Assembly: GCF_030273315.1 (NCBI RefSeq)
Contig: NZ_CP127174.1
Span: 1,178,001-1,242,000 of the forward strand
From: Natrialbaceae archaeon AArc-T1-2
Lineage (GTDB): Archaea > Halobacteriota > Halobacteria > Halobacteriales > Natrialbaceae
Direction of reading: 5' to 3'
Length of the DNA: 64,000 nucleotides
The position numbers were made by a program, and so were the translations under genes. Position 1 is the first letter of the stretch; every line of letters starts with the position of its first letter. Positions 2-63,771 of the stretch are shown here, one piece after another. The notes beneath the pieces are model-generated. The model was not told the origin of the DNA. It saw only the letters and a program-made list of their open reading frames with translations, and did not search any database.

Positions 2-2140
2 GTCGGCGACGCGACGTCGTTGCTCGCGCTCGTCGTCGCGATACTCGCGGCGGCGACGGTGCTCGCCCGGGCGATCCGACCGCGAACCGCGATTGGCCTC
101 GCCGCCGCAGCCGGCGCGGGCGGATTCGGCTACTATCTCGTCACGACGGACGCCGGCCTCGGCGCGACGGTCGCGACCGCACGCGACCTGCTCGCAGACA
201 CCGCCGCGCTCGCGACCGGGCTGTCGGTGTTGCGAATGGTCGATGCGGGAACCTGGGCGCTCGCGTTCGTCCCCGCGCCAGTCTTTCTCTCGTGGTATCT
301 CGCGCTCCGGCGTCAGTACGCTGCAAGCGTCGTCCCGGGTGCGGTCGCACTCTTCTTTCTCGTGCTTACCGGCGACGCGTCCGTCGCCGCCACCGCCGTC
401 GGAACCGTCGGCGCACTCGCCGCCGTCGCCCTCGGCGACCTCGAGCGTCGCGGCGGGACGGTCGCCCAGCTCGAGCTCGTCTCGCTGGTCGTCGCCGCTA
501 TGCTGGTGCTCTCGATGACCGTGCCACTCGTCCCCGGAAGTGCGGGCACGAACGGACCGGCGATAGGCGGCGGCGACGGCGTCGACACCCTCGAGGAGAC
601 GAGTGCAACCGCGCCCGACCGGTCGCCGATCGCCGGCGAGGTCGACCTCTCGCCGGAGGTCCGCTTTACCGTCCAGAGCGAACGACCGAGCTACTGGCGA
701 ACAGGTGTTTACGACCGGTTTACCGGCGACGAGTGGATCCGGACGGGACAGGAACAGGCGTACGACGGAGAGCTGGCGCGACCGCCTGGCGAGTACGAGA
801 CGGTCGAACAGACCGTTCACGTCGAGGCACCAGCCGAAATCATGCCCGCCGCAGCCCACCCGATCGCCGTCGACGGCGAACTCGCATCGGACACCGCGGT
901 CACGACGCACGGTCAGATCCGGCCCGACGGGCCGTTGTTCGCGGGCGACACCTACACCGTCCGAAGCGCCATCGTCGATCCTCCATCCGACGAGCTCCAA
1001 GCGGCTGAAACGGCGTATCCGGAACCGATCACAGAGACGTACCTCCAGACGCCGGGTGACGTCTCGCCGGCGTTCGAGACCTACACCGAAGCGGTCACCG
1101 CCGACGCCGACACACCGTACGAGAAAGCAGTCGCCGTCGAACGCTACCTGCGAACCTCGAAGGAGTACTCCCTCGAGGTCGAGAAGCCGGATGGCGACGT
1201 CGCGGAGGCGTTTCTCTTCGAGATGGACGACGGCTACTGCGTCTACTTCGCGACGACGATGGTCCAGATGCTCCGGACGGCTGACGTCCCCGCACGGTAC
1301 GCCGTCGGCTACACGAGCGGCCAGGAGATCGACGACGGCGAGTACGTCGTCCGCGGGACCGACGCCCACGCGTGGGTCGAAGTGTACTTCCCCGATCACG
1401 GCTGGGTCACGTTCGAGCCGACGCCGGGCGGTCCTCGCGAGGAGACTCACGACGCGTTCGTCGAACAGGCCCGCGAGGACGGCTCCGCGAGCGTCGACAC
1501 CGACGATAGCGAGGACGCCTCGATCGAGGAGGGAGACGACGAGGACCCGCCCGAAGACGCGTTCGACCTCGGCGAACTGGAGCTACCAGACGGTGACAAC
1601 GAGAGCGACGCCGACGGCGCGGGCGATGACCGAGTCGACTCGAACGGGGAAGACGAAGACGGCATCGATCCCGGACCGGACGTCTCGGCTCCCGACGACG
1701 ACGGGATCGCGATGCCGGGACTCGAGACGACCATCGTCGGGCTGGCCGCACTCGTCGGGCTCGTTGCTGGCGTACGCCGAACACGCATCCCGAGCCGCCT
1801 CTATCGCGGCTACCGGCTACACTGGCAACGACCCGGCGACGAACCCGGCCGAGACGTCGAACGGGCCTACGAACGTCTCGAATTGCTACTCGAACGCGAG
1901 TACCGGCCGCGACGTCGATCGGAGACGGTCCGGGACTACCTCGAGCGGCTCGCGTCGGCACACGGCCTCGACGACCGGGTCGTCGCCGTCGGTCGTCGGT
2001 ACGAACGAGTAGCTTACGGCGACGGCGTCACCCGCGAGGAGGCGACCGAAACGATCGCAGCCGTCGACGCGCTCGTTCGAGATCGGACACCGATCCTCGG
2101 CCGACGCCGTCGCGACCGGAATCAGAACCGAGATCCCTAA
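2..2140 (+). CDS. Transglutaminase-like membrane protein (TgpA/DUF4129 type), 5' end outside window
   Basis: The reading frame is open to the left edge, so the N-terminus lies outside the window. The visible part starts with several hydrophobic segments (to about base 545), followed by an extracytoplasmic region. A transglutaminase core follows with the expected triad: Cys in DGYCVYF (codon at 1238), His in TDAHAW (1367) and Asp in FPDHGW (1394). An acidic low-complexity linker (about 1490-1700), one more membrane helix (about 1715-1770) and a basic, helical DUF4129-like cytoplasmic tail come next. The family (TgpA/DUF3488-transglutaminase-DUF4129) usually sits behind MoxR and DUF58 genes, which would be left of the window. 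The biochemical activity of haloarchaeal members is not established; an envelope peptidase or transglutaminase role is inferred. Confidence 0.88.
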   Translation, partial: VGDATSLLALVVAILAAATVLARAIRPRTAIGLAAAAGAGGFGYYLVTTDAGLGATVATARDLLADTAALATGLSVLRMVDAGTWALAFVPAPVFLSWYLALRRQYAASVVPGAVALFFLVLTGDASVAATAVGTVGALAAVALGDLERRGGTVAQLELVSLVVAAMLVLSMTVPLVPGSAGTNGPAIGGGDGVDTLEETSATAPDRSPIAGEVDLSPEVRFTVQSERPSYWRTGVYDRFTGDEWIRTGQEQAYDGELARPPGEYETVEQTVHVEAPAEIMPAAAHPIAVDGELASDTAVTTHGQIRPDGPLFAGDTYTVRSAIVDPPSDELQAAETAYPEPITETYLQTPGDVSPAFETYTEAVTADADTPYEKAVAVERYLRTSKEYSLEVEKPDGDVAEAFLFEMDDGYCVYFATTMVQMLRTADVPARYAVGYTSGQEIDDGEYVVRGTDAHAWVEVYFPDHGWVTFEPTPGGPREETHDAFVEQAREDGSASVDTDDSEDASIEEGDDEDPPEDAFDLGELELPDGDNESDADGAGDDRVDSNGEDEDGIDPGPDVSAPDDDGIAMPGLETTIVGLAALVGLVAGVRRTRIPSRLYRGYRLHWQRPGDEPGRDVERAYERLELLLEREYRPRRRSETVRDYLERLASAHGLDDRVVAVGRRYERVAYGDGVTREEATETIAAVDALVRDRTPILGRRRRDRNQNRDP

Positions 2141-3002: not shown

Positions 3003-3090
3003 GTTATACTATCGGACGTACCTGTGTGACGAGTCTCGCCACCCCGGGGCGGCGAGACTCGTTCACGACGTACGTCCGGCAGTATACAAC
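3003..3090. repeat. About 40-bp imperfect inverted repeat at the end of the Nudix gene
   Basis: Bases 3003-3042 and 3051-3090 are imperfect inverted copies separated by about 8 nt (ccccgggg centre). The inner block ACGAGTCTCGCC and the outer block CGGACGTA pair perfectly, and further out ATACT pairs as well. The right arm is the coding sequence for the last residues of the Nudix protein plus its stop codon. The RNA would form a very long hairpin right at the stop, which could act as a terminator or 3' stabiliser. Confidence 0.75.
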
Positions 3091-3617
3091 AGCCCGTCGG
3101 CGTCAGCCAGCAACAGCCCGCTGATCGAGGCGTCGTTCGCCGGCTGCTCGCGCGCGACCGTGAGCGCCTCCTCGACCGCCACCGGCCGCACCTCGAGGAA
3201 CTCGTTGGTGTCGCGGTCGCGCTGGCCGGGTTCGAGTCCCTCGGCGTAGACGATCGCCCGGTCGTGACGAAGCACCCCCGTCGCGACGCTGTAGGTCTGG
3301 AGAACGGCGAGACTCGACGGGCACAGCCCGGTCTCTTCCTCGAGTTCGCGTCTGGCCGCCTCGGTGTAGGACTCGCCGTCCTCGACGATGCCGGCGGGTA
3401 ACTCGAGGTGGGTCTCGCGGATCGACGGCCGGTACTGTTCGACGAAGATCACCTCGTCGTCGGTCCGGGCGACGATCACCACGGCGTCTGGCAACTCGGC
3501 CCAGTAGTAGCGCTTTTCGGTGCCGTCGGGCTGTTCGACGAGGTCGTAGCCACCGTCGTACCAGCCCGTCTCGTACTCGGTTTCCGATTCGATCACCGGC
3601 CACTCCGTCTCGTCCAT
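3063..3617 (-). CDS. Nudix hydrolase (ADP-ribose pyrophosphatase-like)
   Basis: This 184-residue protein carries a complete Nudix box: Gly76, Glu82, then RELEEETGL at 90-98, fitting GX5EX7REUXEEXGU. The preceding strand has VIFVEQYRPS, a signature of the ADP-ribose/NDP-sugar pyrophosphatase branch, so it probably hydrolyses ADP-ribose or a related nucleoside diphosphate with Mg2+ bound by the box glutamates. The substrate is inferred, not shown. The last codons lie inside a long inverted repeat. The start ATG is the first in frame. Confidence 0.9.
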   Translation of the reverse strand: MDETEWPVIESETEYETGWYDGGYDLVEQPDGTEKRYYWAELPDAVVIVARTDDEVIFVEQYRPSIRETHLELPAGIVEDGESYTEAARRELEEETGLCPSSLAVLQTYSVATGVLRHDRAIVYAEGLEPGQRDRDTNEFLEVRPVAVEEALTVAREQPANDASISGLLLADADGLLYTAGRTS

Positions 3618-7490: not shown

Positions 7491-7564
7491 GGGCCGGTAG
7501 CTCAGTCCGGCAGAGCGTCTGGCTTTTAACCAGACGGCCGCGTGTTCAAATCGCGCCCGGCCCG
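7491..7564 (+). tRNA. tRNA-Lys (anticodon UUU)
   Basis: This is a 74-nt cloverleaf with a perfect acceptor stem GGGCCGG/CCGGCCC, D-arm GCTCAGTCCGGCAGAGC, anticodon stem GTCTGG/CCAGAC around loop CTTTTAA (anticodon TTT), T-loop TTCAAAT and discriminator G. CCA is not encoded. A TATA-like GTTTAA lies around 7457, about 30 nt upstream. A second copy of the 3' end sits 125 bp downstream. Confidence 0.95.
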
Positions 7565-7692
7565 CTTCTCGCCGCGAGCAAATCCGCGAGCGGCGAGCAT
7601 CGGAACCGGCGGGATTTGAACGCAGGGAACACGCAGCGCGAACGAAGTGAGCGACCGTGTGACCGTGTGTTCAAATCGCGCCCGGCCCGCTT
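7542..7692 (+). repeat. Direct repeat of the tRNA-Lys 3' end (possible attachment-site remnant)
   Basis: The last 23 bases of tRNA-Lys plus 3 flanking bases (7542-7567) recur perfectly as 26 nt at 7667-7692. Between them, around 7609-7628, lies a T-arm-like segment in inverse orientation (GGGATTTGAAC). Such split tRNA ends are typical of integrase target sites, but only about 100 bp remain between the copies and no integrase gene is present. The rest of the stretch to 7821 holds no recognisable gene. Confidence 0.7.
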
Positions 7693-8680: not shown

Positions 8681-8737
8681 CGCCGATCGACGGAATCGAA
8701 CCGTCGCCACTCCAGTATCGGTCTCTCTCCGCCACAA

Positions 8738-8785
8738 CCGTGTCGTACGTGTAGTCCAGTCTGCGCCTGGACCCGTTTCCGGGTC
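8738..8785 (-). repeat. 3' arm of the 23S rRNA processing stem
   Basis: This 48-nt segment just past the 23S 3' end is the inverted partner of 11775-11821 just before its 5' end. Shared blocks include ACGGGTCCAG and TGGACTACACGTAC. The two arms bring the ends of 23S together in the precursor. The imperfect centre fits a bulge-helix-bulge site cut by archaeal splicing endonuclease. Confidence 0.8.
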
Positions 8786-8800
8786 ATGATCCATGCGGTA

Positions 8801-11733
<2,933 letters not shown>

Positions 11734-11774
11734 TTCGACGGATCGGCGTTGCGACGAAGTCGCAACGATGTAGT

Positions 11775-11821
11775 GACCCGGGAACGGGTCCAGTGGACGC
11801 CTGGACTACACGTACACACGG
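11775..11821 (-). repeat. 5' arm of the 23S rRNA processing stem
   Basis: This is the inverted partner of 8738-8785; see that entry. The mismatched core (CAGTGGACGCCTGG here against CAGGCGCAGACTGG in the other arm's complement) is where the bulge-helix-bulge cut sites would be. Confidence 0.8.
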
Positions 11822-11963
11822 TCTCATCCGCACGCCAGTAGACAGCTGGCCTGCATTAACCCTTCCCACCCGCGTTTACACGGGGTGGTGCATCGGTTCT
11901 GTCGTACCCAATCGTCGCGCCGTCTCCCACTTAAGGGGAGCGATTCGACGACGGGCCGAGACA

Positions 11964-39902: not shown

Positions 39903-40574
39903 GTGCCCGAGTTTCCGACCGAACGCCACGTGGTAGAGTCCGACTGTGCTCGCTGTCCGTCTCTCAGCGACGCTCGCGAGTGCATCTCCTGGGGTACCGG
40001 CGATCCGGACGCGGACGTCCTGGTCGTCGGCGAGGCTCCCGGCTACGGAAATCCCGACGCCGACCGCTGGCGCGGCGGCAACTGGACCGGAATGGCCTAC
40101 ACCTCGAGACACTCCGGCCGTCGCATCCGCGAGTTGCTCACAGCGACCGGCTACGCCGCGGACGCCTACTACACGAACGCGGTGAAGTGCTTTCCTGCCG
40201 ATCCGGACGATCCGGCGACGAATCGCGAACCGACCGACGAAGAACGGTCGAACTGCCGTCGGCACCTGCTCGCCGAACTCGAGACCGTCGCCCCCGTCGT
40301 CGTCCTCGCGACGGGCAAACACGCCACGACGACGATACTCGAAGCGGAGGGGCGATCGCTCGATGGCTTTCTCGAGGCCGTCCTCGAGCCGGTTCGCTGT
40401 GACGACCTCGGCGTCTGGCTCGTCCCGATCCTGCATCCGTCCTACCAGGACGTCTGGCTCGCCAGGCTGGAGTACGACTCCGAGGAGTACGTGACGGCGA
40501 TCGAAGAGACGCTCGCGAACTGTCTCGTGCAGCCGGTCCCACGCGAGCACGGTCCGGACCACGTTTCCGGTTAG
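39903..40574 (+). CDS. Uracil-DNA glycosylase superfamily protein (family 4/5-like)
   Basis: This is 223 residues with a GTG start. The iron-sulfur ligands are CARC near residues 16-19, Cys in NAVKCFP and Cys in SNCRRHL. The uracil site motif is GEAPGYGNPD and the C-terminal motif is LHPSYQ. This is an FeS-type glycosylase removing uracil from DNA. The last 87 nt before the C-terminal tail (40434-40520) reappear decayed at 40903-40989. Confidence 0.87.
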   Translation: MPEFPTERHVVESDCARCPSLSDARECISWGTGDPDADVLVVGEAPGYGNPDADRWRGGNWTGMAYTSRHSGRRIRELLTATGYAADAYYTNAVKCFPADPDDPATNREPTDEERSNCRRHLLAELETVAPVVVLATGKHATTTILEAEGRSLDGFLEAVLEPVRCDDLGVWLVPILHPSYQDVWLARLEYDSEEYVTAIEETLANCLVQPVPREHGPDHVSG

Positions 40575-40649
40575 ACGATCACTCTAAAGTACACTCATTT
40601 CTCACACATATTCGACTGTCGGTCCAGAAGAGTAGGAAATTTTCCACCA

Positions 40650-40755
40650 GTTCGACAGTCACGCCAACAGATGTATTATTGGTGCACTCCTACTGACTGA
40701 TGGCGGGACGGATACGGACATCGAACACCCGTCAGTGCTCACCACCTGAACCCGC
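40650..40755 (+). repeat. Upstream copy (R1) of a duplicated intergenic segment
   Basis: Blocks such as ACGCCAACAGATGTATTAT (40661-40679), GATGGCGGGACGGATACGGA (40699 on) and AGTGCTCACC recur in the same order at 41046-41180. Identity is high in the blocks and low between them. The stretch is part of a decayed tandem duplication; no gene is seen. Confidence 0.75.
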
Positions 40756-40820
40756 CACTGCCGTCTGCTCCATGCGGCCTCCAGCCGCTTGCAGAAACCG
40801 AACCCATTCTCGAGTGATCT

Positions 40821-40850
40821 TACGGTTTCGTTCATCGAGGACGAAATCCG
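40821..40850 (+). pseudogene. Fragment of the 5' end of bluB
   Basis: Bases 40821-40850 match the start of bluB (41271-41300) in about 25 of 30 positions (GGTTTCGTTC core), with the ATG changed to ACG. It sits between R1 and the UDG fragment, exactly where a tandem duplication would place it. Confidence 0.6.
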
Positions 40851-40902
40851 GACTATTACGCCCGCCTGAACGTCCGCCGGTTCCGGCCTGTCCCGACCTA
40901 CA

Positions 40903-40989
40903 TCCGTCCTGCCAGGACGTCTGTCTCGTCCGGCTGAAATGCGACTCCGAGGAGTACGTGACCGCGATCGCAGGGACGCTCGCGAACGA
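40903..40989 (+). pseudogene. Fragment of the 3' end of the uracil-DNA glycosylase gene
   Basis: This 87-nt segment matches 40434-40520 in 77 positions without gaps (about 88%). It would encode HPSCQDVCLVRLKCDSEEYV in place of the HPSYQDVWLARLEYDSEEYV of the intact gene. The catalytic-motif Tyr and the Trp are lost to Cys, so it is a relic. Confidence 0.85.
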
Positions 40990-41045
40990 CGGCTACGCAC
41001 TCGACTCGACGATTGTTTCACATCCATAGGACAATATTCCAATCA

Positions 41046-41180
41046 TTCGACGCACACGCCAACAGATGTATTATGCCCCCGGTACTACCTGAAGATGGCG
41101 GGGCGAATACGGACATCGAACGCCGTATCGATGCCAAGTGCTCACCCTCGCTGTCGATACCCGCCACAATTATCCGTTCT
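41046..41180 (+). repeat. Downstream copy (R2) of the duplicated intergenic segment
   Basis: This is the partner of 40650-40755. It keeps the 19-nt identical block (41056-41074), GATGGCGGGG...GGACATCGAAC (41094-41121) and AGTGCTCACC. It lies about 90-225 nt upstream of bluB and could contain its upstream regulatory region. No gene is seen in 41046-41271. Confidence 0.75.
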
Positions 41181-41271
41181 ACCCGGCCCCAGTCGCTCCT
41201 GAACAGCCGAACCTGTCTCTAGGACCGTCCGGACAGCAACATTCTTCAAATTGAATTTCACTACTGCTATT

Positions 41272-41931
41272 ATGGTTTCGTTCACCGAGGAGGAGACCCG
41301 GGCCGTTTACGAGGCGATCTACGCTCGCCGGGATATCCGGCGATTCCGGAGCGAGCCGATCCCCGATGACGTGCTCGAGCGACTCGTCGACGCCGCCCAC
41401 CACGCCCCGAGCGTCGGATTCTCCCAGCCCTGGGACTTCGTCGTGATCCGCGACGAGGAGACGAAAAGCGATATCAAAGAGATCGCCTCGCGGGCGATCG
41501 CGGCCGCACAGGCGGCCTACGAGGAACCCAGACAGTCCGAGTTCGGGCAGTTGAAACTCGAGGGAATCGAGGAGTCGCCGGTCAACCTCTGTGTCACCTG
41601 TGATCCGACCCGTGGCGGTCCACACGTCCTGGGACGGAACTCGATGCGTCGCACCGACGTCTACTCGACGTGTCTCGCCGTGCAGAACCTCTGGCTCGCC
41701 GCCCGGGCCGAGGGAGTCGGCGTCGGCTGGGTGAGCTTTCTCTACCCTGCCGAGGTCCGCGAGGTACTCGGGATTCCGCCACACGTCAAGCCGATCGCCT
41801 ACCTCTGTCTCGGCTACCCCGAGTCGTTTCCCGACGAGCCGACCCTCCAGACCGAGGGCTGGCGCGATCGCATCGACCTCGAGGAACTCGTCCACACCGG
41901 CGGCTGGGACGCCCGGGCTGGAAGCGAGTAA
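41272..41931 (+). CDS. bluB: 5,6-dimethylbenzimidazole synthase-like nitroreductase (BluB)
   Basis: This is 219 residues from MVSFTEEETRAVYEAIYARR. The flavin-binding RRDIRRFRSEPIPDDVL start, HHAPSVGFSQPWDFVVI and LAARAEGVGVGWVSF match the BluB branch of the nitroreductase family, which breaks FMN to make the lower ligand of cobalamin. Assignment to BluB rather than a generic nitroreductase rests on the GFSQPWDF and GWVSF motifs. The region in front is a decayed tandem duplication. Confidence 0.87.
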   Translation: MVSFTEEETRAVYEAIYARRDIRRFRSEPIPDDVLERLVDAAHHAPSVGFSQPWDFVVIRDEETKSDIKEIASRAIAAAQAAYEEPRQSEFGQLKLEGIEESPVNLCVTCDPTRGGPHVLGRNSMRRTDVYSTCLAVQNLWLAARAEGVGVGWVSFLYPAEVREVLGIPPHVKPIAYLCLGYPESFPDEPTLQTEGWRDRIDLEELVHTGGWDARAGSE

Positions 41932-55831: not shown

Positions 55832-56443
55832 ATGCGCGACGCGCTCCGTGCCGGCGTCGCCGTCTACAACGACGGCTACTACCACGCCGCCCACGACGCC
55901 TGGGAGGATCGCTGGCTCGCCCTCGAGTCCGGCACCGACGACGAACGGCTCCTCCACGGGTTGATCCAGTTCACCGCCGCGGTCTACCACGCTCGCGATC
56001 GCAACTGGACGGGTGCGGTCGGGCTGGCCGAAAGCGCACGCGAGTATCTCGAGGGGCTGCCGGCGGCCTACCGCGACGTCGATCTGCCCCCGGTGCGGGA
56101 CTACCTCGAGTCGCTGGCGTCCGATCCCGAGGTGATCGAGCGCCGATCACCGATCCGACTCGTCCACGAGGGCGAGACGCCCGGTCTGAACGACCTCGAC
56201 GTCCGGCCGACGGCGATCGCCGCCGGCGTACTGGCCGCGGAGTTGGACTTCGACGACGACCCCGTCACGGCCGCAGCCGAGTACGCGATCGACGACCTCG
56301 AGGCGGGACGGGACGACAGTCGCTTCATCGCCGTGGTGTTCGCTTTCGTCCGGAGCGACCACCGCGATGTCGTCTACCGGCGGCTCTCGGCACACGTCGA
56401 GCGCCGGCGAGCGAAAGAAGACGACGTCGAGGGGTTGTTCTGA
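55832..56443 (+). CDS. DUF309-type protein
   Basis: This is 203 residues from MRDALRAGVAVYNDGYYHAA at 55832. The N-terminal YHAAHDAWED with FTAAVYHARDRNWTGA is the DUF309 helical signature (HxxHExWE-like). The length includes a C-terminal domain of unknown type. The function is unknown. Confidence 0.85.
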   Translation: MRDALRAGVAVYNDGYYHAAHDAWEDRWLALESGTDDERLLHGLIQFTAAVYHARDRNWTGAVGLAESAREYLEGLPAAYRDVDLPPVRDYLESLASDPEVIERRSPIRLVHEGETPGLNDLDVRPTAIAAGVLAAELDFDDDPVTAAAEYAIDDLEAGRDDSRFIAVVFAFVRSDHRDVVYRRLSAHVERRRAKEDDVEGLF

Positions 56444-62349: not shown

Positions 62350-63771
62350 TCAGAACACGTCGCTCGCCTCGAGGCGTCCGTCGCGGACGACGCCGCGGGC
62401 GGTGACTTCCTCGCCGAGTCCGACGTCCGCGTCCGTTTCGACGCTCATCGTCTCCTCACCGTCGTCTAACACCACCGGGTCGCCGGCCTGGACGACCACG
62501 CCCGTGAACTCGAGTTCTTCGCCGTCCGCGTCCGTACCCGTACCCGTAGCTCCGTCGCCCCCGCCGACATCGCTCGAGGTGGCCGTCGAGTCCTCCGTGC
62601 CGTCGTCTGAAAACGCCGAGAGCCCGGCCGACTCGTCGTCCGCGTCGGATTCGTCCGCACCGGCATCGTCGGCGTCGAGCACCGTCACCGTCGATCGCCA
62701 CCCCGCCGAGGCCTCGAGGTCGTCCTGCCAGCCGTCCTGGACCTCGACGTCCGTGAACGCGACCTCGTCGCCGGGGCCGAGTTCGATATCCGCTTTCTCG
62801 CCCCACAGCGCGACGCGAACGTCGCCGGTGGCGTCCTGCAGGCGAACGTTTCGAACCTGACCCTCCGAGCCGTCGTCGCGATCGAAGGTGCGTTTGGGAT
62901 CTGCCGACCGGATTACCCCCGCGACGTCGACCGTCTGACCGATCTCGAGGTCCTCGATCGGCGTGCTCTCGGGGACGTACTCGACCTCGGCATCGACCTC
63001 CTCGACTGCACCCCGGTTGCCGACGTGGAGTTCGAGGTCGCCGTCGCGTTCGCGGACGTAGCCGTCGACGACCTCGACGGTCGTCCCGGACTCGAGGTCC
63101 GCGACGCGGTCGGCTCGCTCGTCCCACAGCGTCACGCGAACGCGACCGGTCGAATCGCCCAGCGTGAGGTTCGCGACTCTCCCTTCGGAGCCGTCGTCGC
63201 GGTCGAACGTCCGCACCGAGTCAGTATCGAGTACGACCCCCACGAGGTTGACGTTCGAGAGCCCGAGCGAGAGGTCCTCGACCGTCTGCGTATCGGAGAG
63301 CTGGACGTCGACGTCCGCGTCTGGATCGGGTTCGACCTCGTCGACGCTGACCTCGACGCCGGAAAAGCCCTCCTTCGGACGACCCTTGAGCCGTAACACC
63401 TGGCCCTCCTCGAGTTCTCCGATTGCAGCCTCGGCGTGTTCGTCCCAGAACGCGGCGCGAACGGAGCCCGTCTCGTCTGCGACCTCGACGTTGACCACGC
63501 GACCGTCCTCGTCCTCGCCGTCGCGTTCGAACGTCCGTAGCTCGCCGATGCTCACCACCTTCGCGACGAACTTGGCTTCCTCCATGCCGGGTTCGACGTC
63601 CGCGACGCCGCCGACTTCGCTCTCGCCGAGTTCGTGAGCGACGAGCATCGCCGCCGTCTCCTCGTCCGCGAGTCCACCCATCTGCTCTACTTTCGCCTCG
63701 ACGGCCTCGCGAAACTCCTCGAGGGAGACGTCGGCCTCGAGGTCCTCGTAGACGCCCTCGATGTCGCTCAT
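62350..63771 (-). CDS. rpa: Replication protein A (single-stranded DNA-binding protein)
   Basis: This is 473 residues from the ATG at 63771 (MSDIEGVYEDLEADVSLEEF). A short helical N-terminus is followed by three OB folds with repeated RTFERDGEDEDGRVVNVEV / RTFDRDDGSEGRVANL / RTFDRDDGSEGQVRNV, and an acidic tail with a final OB-like strand set. It binds ssDNA in replication and repair. It heads the rpa-histone-deacetylase cluster; in Haloferax the essential RPA lies close to the histone gene as I recall. Confidence 0.93.
   Translation of the reverse strand: MSDIEGVYEDLEADVSLEEFREAVEAKVEQMGGLADEETAAMLVAHELGESEVGGVADVEPGMEEAKFVAKVVSIGELRTFERDGEDEDGRVVNVEVADETGSVRAAFWDEHAEAAIGELEEGQVLRLKGRPKEGFSGVEVSVDEVEPDPDADVDVQLSDTQTVEDLSLGLSNVNLVGVVLDTDSVRTFDRDDGSEGRVANLTLGDSTGRVRVTLWDERADRVADLESGTTVEVVDGYVRERDGDLELHVGNRGAVEEVDAEVEYVPESTPIEDLEIGQTVDVAGVIRSADPKRTFDRDDGSEGQVRNVRLQDATGDVRVALWGEKADIELGPGDEVAFTDVEVQDGWQDDLEASAGWRSTVTVLDADDAGADESDADDESAGLSAFSDDGTEDSTATSSDVGGGDGATGTGTDADGEELEFTGVVVQAGDPVVLDDGEETMSVETDADVGLGEEVTARGVVRDGRLEASDVF

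Follow-up and report, generated by a model that had tools for sequence, protein, structure and literature searches.

A 64,000-nucleotide stretch of the Natrialbaceae archaeon AArc-T1-2 genome (hereafter the window; the genome comprises 3.36 Mb in 3 contigs, and its rRNA genes are archaeal) carries an intact gene of the UDG superfamily and an intact bluB gene separated by about 700 bp, and this interval contains a second, broken set of both gene ends. On the plus strand the pieces follow one another as UDG - R1 - bluB' - 'UDG - R2 - bluB, where R1 and R2 are two copies of a spacer, R. The arrangement raises the question of how the second set arose and whether the parts of R that remain alike in both copies have been kept by selection, as a sequence-only reading of this DNA had suggested.

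Organization of the UDG-bluB locus

The product of the second bluB copy exceeds the BluB equivalog cut-off (TIGR02476, 279.6 versus 150 bits). The first UDG copy, whose 3' end supplies the beginning of the duplicated unit from about position 40414 on, falls below the curated cut-offs of the models for type-4 uracil-DNA glycosylases (NF040953, 72.8 versus 250 bits; TIGR00758, 66 versus 125.3 bits) and is therefore assigned to the UDG superfamily only. Both genes are intact open reading frames (ORFs) with family matches, so that the statement in the sequence-only reading that all coding pieces are broken applies to the inner bluB' and 'UDG and not to the first UDG and the second bluB. An Rfam search over the whole window returned six matches, every one of them rRNA or tRNA.

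Table 1. Features of the UDG-bluB locus (positions in the window)
Feature	Position	Strand	Evidence or detail
UDG-superfamily gene, intact first copy	39903..40574	+	Pfam PF03167, E 3.9e-21; GTG start, 223 aa
Duplicated unit, copy 1 (UDG end - R1 - bluB'), about 468 bp	40414..40881	+	Repeat alignments, self-BLAST
R1: block 1 40638-40679, 19-nt spacer 40680-40698, block 2 40699-40729	40638..40729	+	Register shared with R2, offset 395
bluB' fragment, predicted dead bluB 5' end	40807..40886	+	ACG in place of ATG, in-frame TGA, promoter core missing
Duplication junction TCCGG	40882..40886		Sequence reading and BLAST ends
'UDG fragment, predicted dead copy of UDG 3' end	40882..40987	+	86% over 107 columns; core 80/91; Tyr and Trp lost
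R2: block 1 41033-41074, spacer 41075-41093, block 2 41094-41124	41033..41124	+	Repeat alignments
bluB promoter region; TTCAA core spanning -27 to -23 relative to ATG	41229..41271	+	Homologous to the equivalent place in G021
bluB (5,6-dimethylbenzimidazole synthase), intact, 219 aa	41272..41931	+	TIGR02476, 279.6 bits

Similarity between the two copies

The copies are colinear and lie on the same strand in the arrangement A-R-B'-'A-R-B. The UDG tails (40430-40520 and 40897-40987) are identical at 80 of 91 positions (88%), and their homology reaches slightly past this start (40414-40520 and 40882-40987, 86% by self-BLAST). Identity amounts to 34/42 in R block 1 and 28/31 in R block 2, or 62/73 (85%) for the two blocks together, and to 35/45 (78%) at the start of bluB (40807-40851 and 41257-41301). 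None of 1000 dinucleotide shuffles reached the local alignment scores of the UDG tail, the whole of R, R blocks 1 and 2 or the bluB start, each taken with some flank; the repetition of the UDG end, R and the bluB start proposed in the sequence-only reading therefore reflects real similarity. Its figure of about 25/30 for the beginning of bluB was reproduced exactly when counted from the start codon, and the identical block that it had placed in R1 and R2 is present, with a length of 20 nt rather than 19 (40660-40679 and 41055-41074).

Gapped global alignment of the R blocks and of the bluB start gave scores reached by 0 of 500 shuffles. The part of R located 3' of block 2 was marginal in local alignment (6/1000 shuffles reached the score) and above chance in gapped global alignment (2/500), and the part 5' of block 1 was near chance in the latter (31/500). 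The gapped identities of 83-89% within R weigh little, because shuffles average 72-79%. Over its three parts R contains 24 gap runs, as compared with none in the 91 columns of the UDG tail.

Origin by a single tandem duplication

An origin by a single tandem duplication of about 468 bp, comprising the UDG 3' end, the spacer R and the bluB 5' end, is well supported. One such event predicts the order UDG - R1 - bluB' - 'UDG - R2 - bluB that was found. The junction TCCGG falls within both the bluB and the UDG homologies, and its counterparts at the breakpoints, as they read after decay, are an identical TCCGG in bluB (41345-41349) and TCTGG in UDG (40414-40418; 4/5 bases). In three outgroup genomes of the family (G016, G021 and G094), UDG is directly followed by a single bluB, with an intergenic length of 126 nt in G016 and 85 nt in G021. 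The order, the junction and these single-copy neighborhoods all agree with the earlier proposal that one duplication of this segment took place. A search of 125 family genomes, the host genome included, yielded 99 other genomes matching at E <= 1e-60, and 29 of these provided the 29 UDG loci used for comparison. At 3 of the 29 loci bluB adjoins UDG; a second UDG-tail fragment, looked for within the sequence around each UDG, occurred at none of them (0/29).

Short tandem duplications that arise by illegitimate (microhomology) recombination or by replication slippage need no phenotype. The present one shares with them the head-to-tail arrangement, the partial genes at the inner junction and, as far as the decayed sequence shows, a few shared bases at the breakpoints, and shows no essential difference from them, being an old and partly erased case. 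We consider it quite probable that, overall, the locus reflects an ordinary tandem duplication, illegitimate in origin and about 468 bp long, whose inner pieces drift neutrally, the R blocks being mere remains. This explanation builds directly on the order of the pieces, the alignment statistics, the single-copy state of the outgroups and the neutral pattern in 'UDG. The duplication would have arisen between breakpoints with about 4-5 bases in common, presumably through replication slippage or a microhomology mechanism. The outer UDG and bluB would have remained whole, the inner bluB' and 'UDG would then have drifted neutrally through substitutions and indels, and the R blocks would most likely be the better preserved leftovers of the duplicated spacer, probably devoid of function.

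Decay of the inner fragments and a neutral expectation for R

Judged by their sequence, the inner bluB' and 'UDG fragments are dead. Besides the altered start codon and the in-frame TGA of bluB' (Table 1), its promoter core is missing, the corresponding stretch falling in an alignment gap, and the Tyr and the Trp changed in 'UDG are both kept in 29/29 relatives (tblastn). Most of the 11 sites at which the UDG tails differ could be assigned to the inner copy: at eight of them its base was found in 0-2 of 25 orthologues, while position 40464 represents a change in the intact first copy and positions 40472 and 40504 are ambiguous (this polarization used 25 of the 29 loci, found by a pattern requiring the Tyr codon). 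Seven of the 11 differences change an amino acid, versus 77% expected at random (P 0.28).

The dead UDG branch, with 8-10 changes in 91 nt, provided a neutral expectation of 17-21% divergence for two branches that are both free to change. In the R blocks, 11 of 73 sites (15%) are not identical, which fits this prediction (P about 0.34, range 0.25-0.45, for 11 or fewer differences) and makes the blocks unremarkable beside the dead UDG fragment; an identical run of 20 has a probability of 0.17-0.50 under the same expectation. The 19-nt spacer between the blocks has the same length in both copies but is identical at only 6/19 positions, against 62/73 in the blocks (Fisher P 1.3e-5) and 80/91 in the UDG tail (P 1.3e-6), and a gapped alignment of its two copies was no better than shuffles (331/500 reached its score). 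A spacer scrambled at equal length may stem from several compensating indels, from a small replacement or from a fixed distance between a TATA box and a transcript start. Uniform neutral drift fails to predict this pattern unless compensating indels or a small replacement are assumed, and this counts against the explanation that we favor, as do the many indels in R beside a UDG tail that has none and the favorable fold of the R2 core described below.

The R2 core is predicted to fold better as RNA than most shuffles (z -2.4; 5/500), and the z-score was -0.9 for the R1 core and for longer stretches of both R1 and R2. No RNA structure common to R1 and R2 was found: a GGCGGG/CCCGCC stem is favored in R1 only, and the R2 core folds differently.

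Distribution of R

In a search of the 125 family genomes (own genome included) with R2 DNA, 109 had a match at E <= 1, the best outside the host genome covering 23 nt (E 0.003). A sequence-only model of R1 and R2 scored the two window copies at 136 and 118 bits and detected no further copy in the host genome (next 13.3 bits, E 0.15). Among 391 further genomes of the order the same model gave no convincing match; the best score there was 20.7 bits (E 8.4e-4) and 44 genomes matched at E <= 0.05, with about 20 expected by chance and the E-values being rough. A distant BLAST search of plasmids and phages returned no match to the R region, the exact 19-mer of R occurred in 0 viral contigs, and the UDG-bluB intergenic stretches of G021 and G016 held no R-like sequence above shuffles. 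Relatives carrying R1 and R2 as independent insertions, named beforehand as the observation that would speak against a duplication, were not seen, and neither was a single-copy R, as none of the other genomes searched yielded R. In the one genome of the same genus that was compared (G001, 67% complete), the contig stops a short way past UDG, and this genome gave no bluB match; its sequence after UDG was not clearly above shuffles in comparison with R (lowest 22/200). This sequence (L140, about 2130-2361) resembles what we take to be the end of an IS200/IS605-type element. Either R is an insert specific to this lineage, or it is a spacer that has diverged past recognition.

Regulation of bluB and alternative explanations

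A conserved core was found upstream of bluB in haloarchaea. Forty-one loci from L057-L098 (excluding L095, a Rubrobacter locus) together with G021 and G094 supplied 43 upstream regions. Merging of two duplicates reduced these to 41 distinct ones, which have T at -27 in 38, C at -25 in 35, A at -24 in 35 and A at -23 in 39; the loci were drawn from the best 80 of 363 and include many close relatives, so that the counts are not independent. The intact bluB of the window matches this core at all four bases, and the last 43 nt upstream of it align with G021. Unlike the outgroup bluB neighborhoods, that of the window has extra R sequence further upstream, and the R2 blocks sit about 150-240 nt before bluB, outside the promoter core. 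Most likely, bluB has a leaderless promoter of its own immediately ahead of the ATG, from which it is transcribed, and its regulation most likely resides in the -27 to -23 region rather than in the R blocks, because the conserved core lies there.

The suggestion of the sequence-only reading that R is selected as a regulatory region of bluB, which would imply two retained operator copies, agrees with the position of R2 directly upstream of bluB. It is nevertheless very unlikely and finds no support in the present data, since the blocks fit the neutral expectation and the promoter core common to haloarchaeal bluB genes lies outside them; the R2 blocks are also distant from the gene, and G021 and G016 have the same UDG-bluB neighborhood without R-like intergenic sequence. 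Another possibility, that unequal crossing-over joined already diverged alleles, for instance of mating strains, would make the non-coding R more different than the UDG tail from the outset and would suit an R that is rich in indels beside a UDG tail that is not. The UDG-tail changes look neutral instead of synonymous-biased (a weak test with 11 changes), which suggests that little divergence predates the duplication, and we regard such an origin as highly improbable.

A more serious alternative accepts the same duplication but takes the R blocks to be a selected promoter and transcript start, with a TATA-like TGTATTAT in block 1 and an ATG in block 2 about 24 nt further on, as in a leaderless transcript, which might encode a short ORF (beginning with MAGRIRTSN in both copies) or represent a small RNA. 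We keep it as an unlikely explanation, mainly because of the spacer scrambled at constant length: conserved blocks around a spacer that is free to vary in sequence only are what a TATA box at a fixed distance from the start would produce. In PMC4983044, the haloarchaeal TATA motif is given as TTWT and the BRE motif as CGAAA, and 72% of the protein-coding transcripts of Haloferax volcanii are reported to be leaderless, which makes this the usual form there. The TTAT of block 1 fits the former motif, but the BRE motif of that source is absent from block 1. Two of the three block 2 differences fall at third codon positions (GGA/GGG, CGG/CGA), yet the R1 and R2 peptides diverge after about nine residues and neither of the containing ORFs has a Pfam match. 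Likewise, the favorable fold of the R2 core has to be set against the different fold preferred by the R1 core and the ordinary scores of the latter and of the longer stretches. The blocks are, moreover, kept no better than expected under neutrality and lack a convincing homologue in the 391 other genomes of the order. It seems doubtful that a lineage-specific promoter lives on in two copies in the R blocks and drives a very short leaderless transcript (a peptide MAGRIRTSN... or a small RNA) ahead of bluB, with both copies preserved and the spacer between the TATA-like sequence and the start free to change. Were the blocks shown to be transcribed, they would exemplify the emergence of a small transcription unit from spacer DNA.

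Under the favored explanation of neutral decay after a tandem duplication, the locus appears to be a common kind of genome scar in which nothing points convincingly to a concealed regulatory element. It offers a readable archaeal example of a small tandem duplication in decay, in which the dead UDG fragment serves as an internal clock for the spacer, and it cautions against reading selection into short stretches of an old duplication on the strength of their identity alone.

Other repeats in the window

Several further repeats were observed in the window. The 3' end of a tRNA-Lys gene (7491-7565) is repeated about 95 nt downstream (7538-7567 and 7663-7692; 30 nt, 97%), an arrangement reminiscent of the paired attachment sites of an integrative element that has since been lost. 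An inverted repeat at 3005-3086 (84 columns, 83%) could form a large hairpin and overlaps the start of an ORF on the minus strand (3063-3617). Within a 483-aa ORF, also on the minus strand, a direct repeat (62789-62892 and 63110-63213; 71%, 321 nt apart) probably corresponds to an internal protein repeat. A 51-column match (82%) connects distant parts of the window (1907-1956 and 56071-56121), and an inverted repeat (8737-8786 and 11774-11822) flanks the 23S rRNA gene, presumably as expected of an rRNA processing stem.
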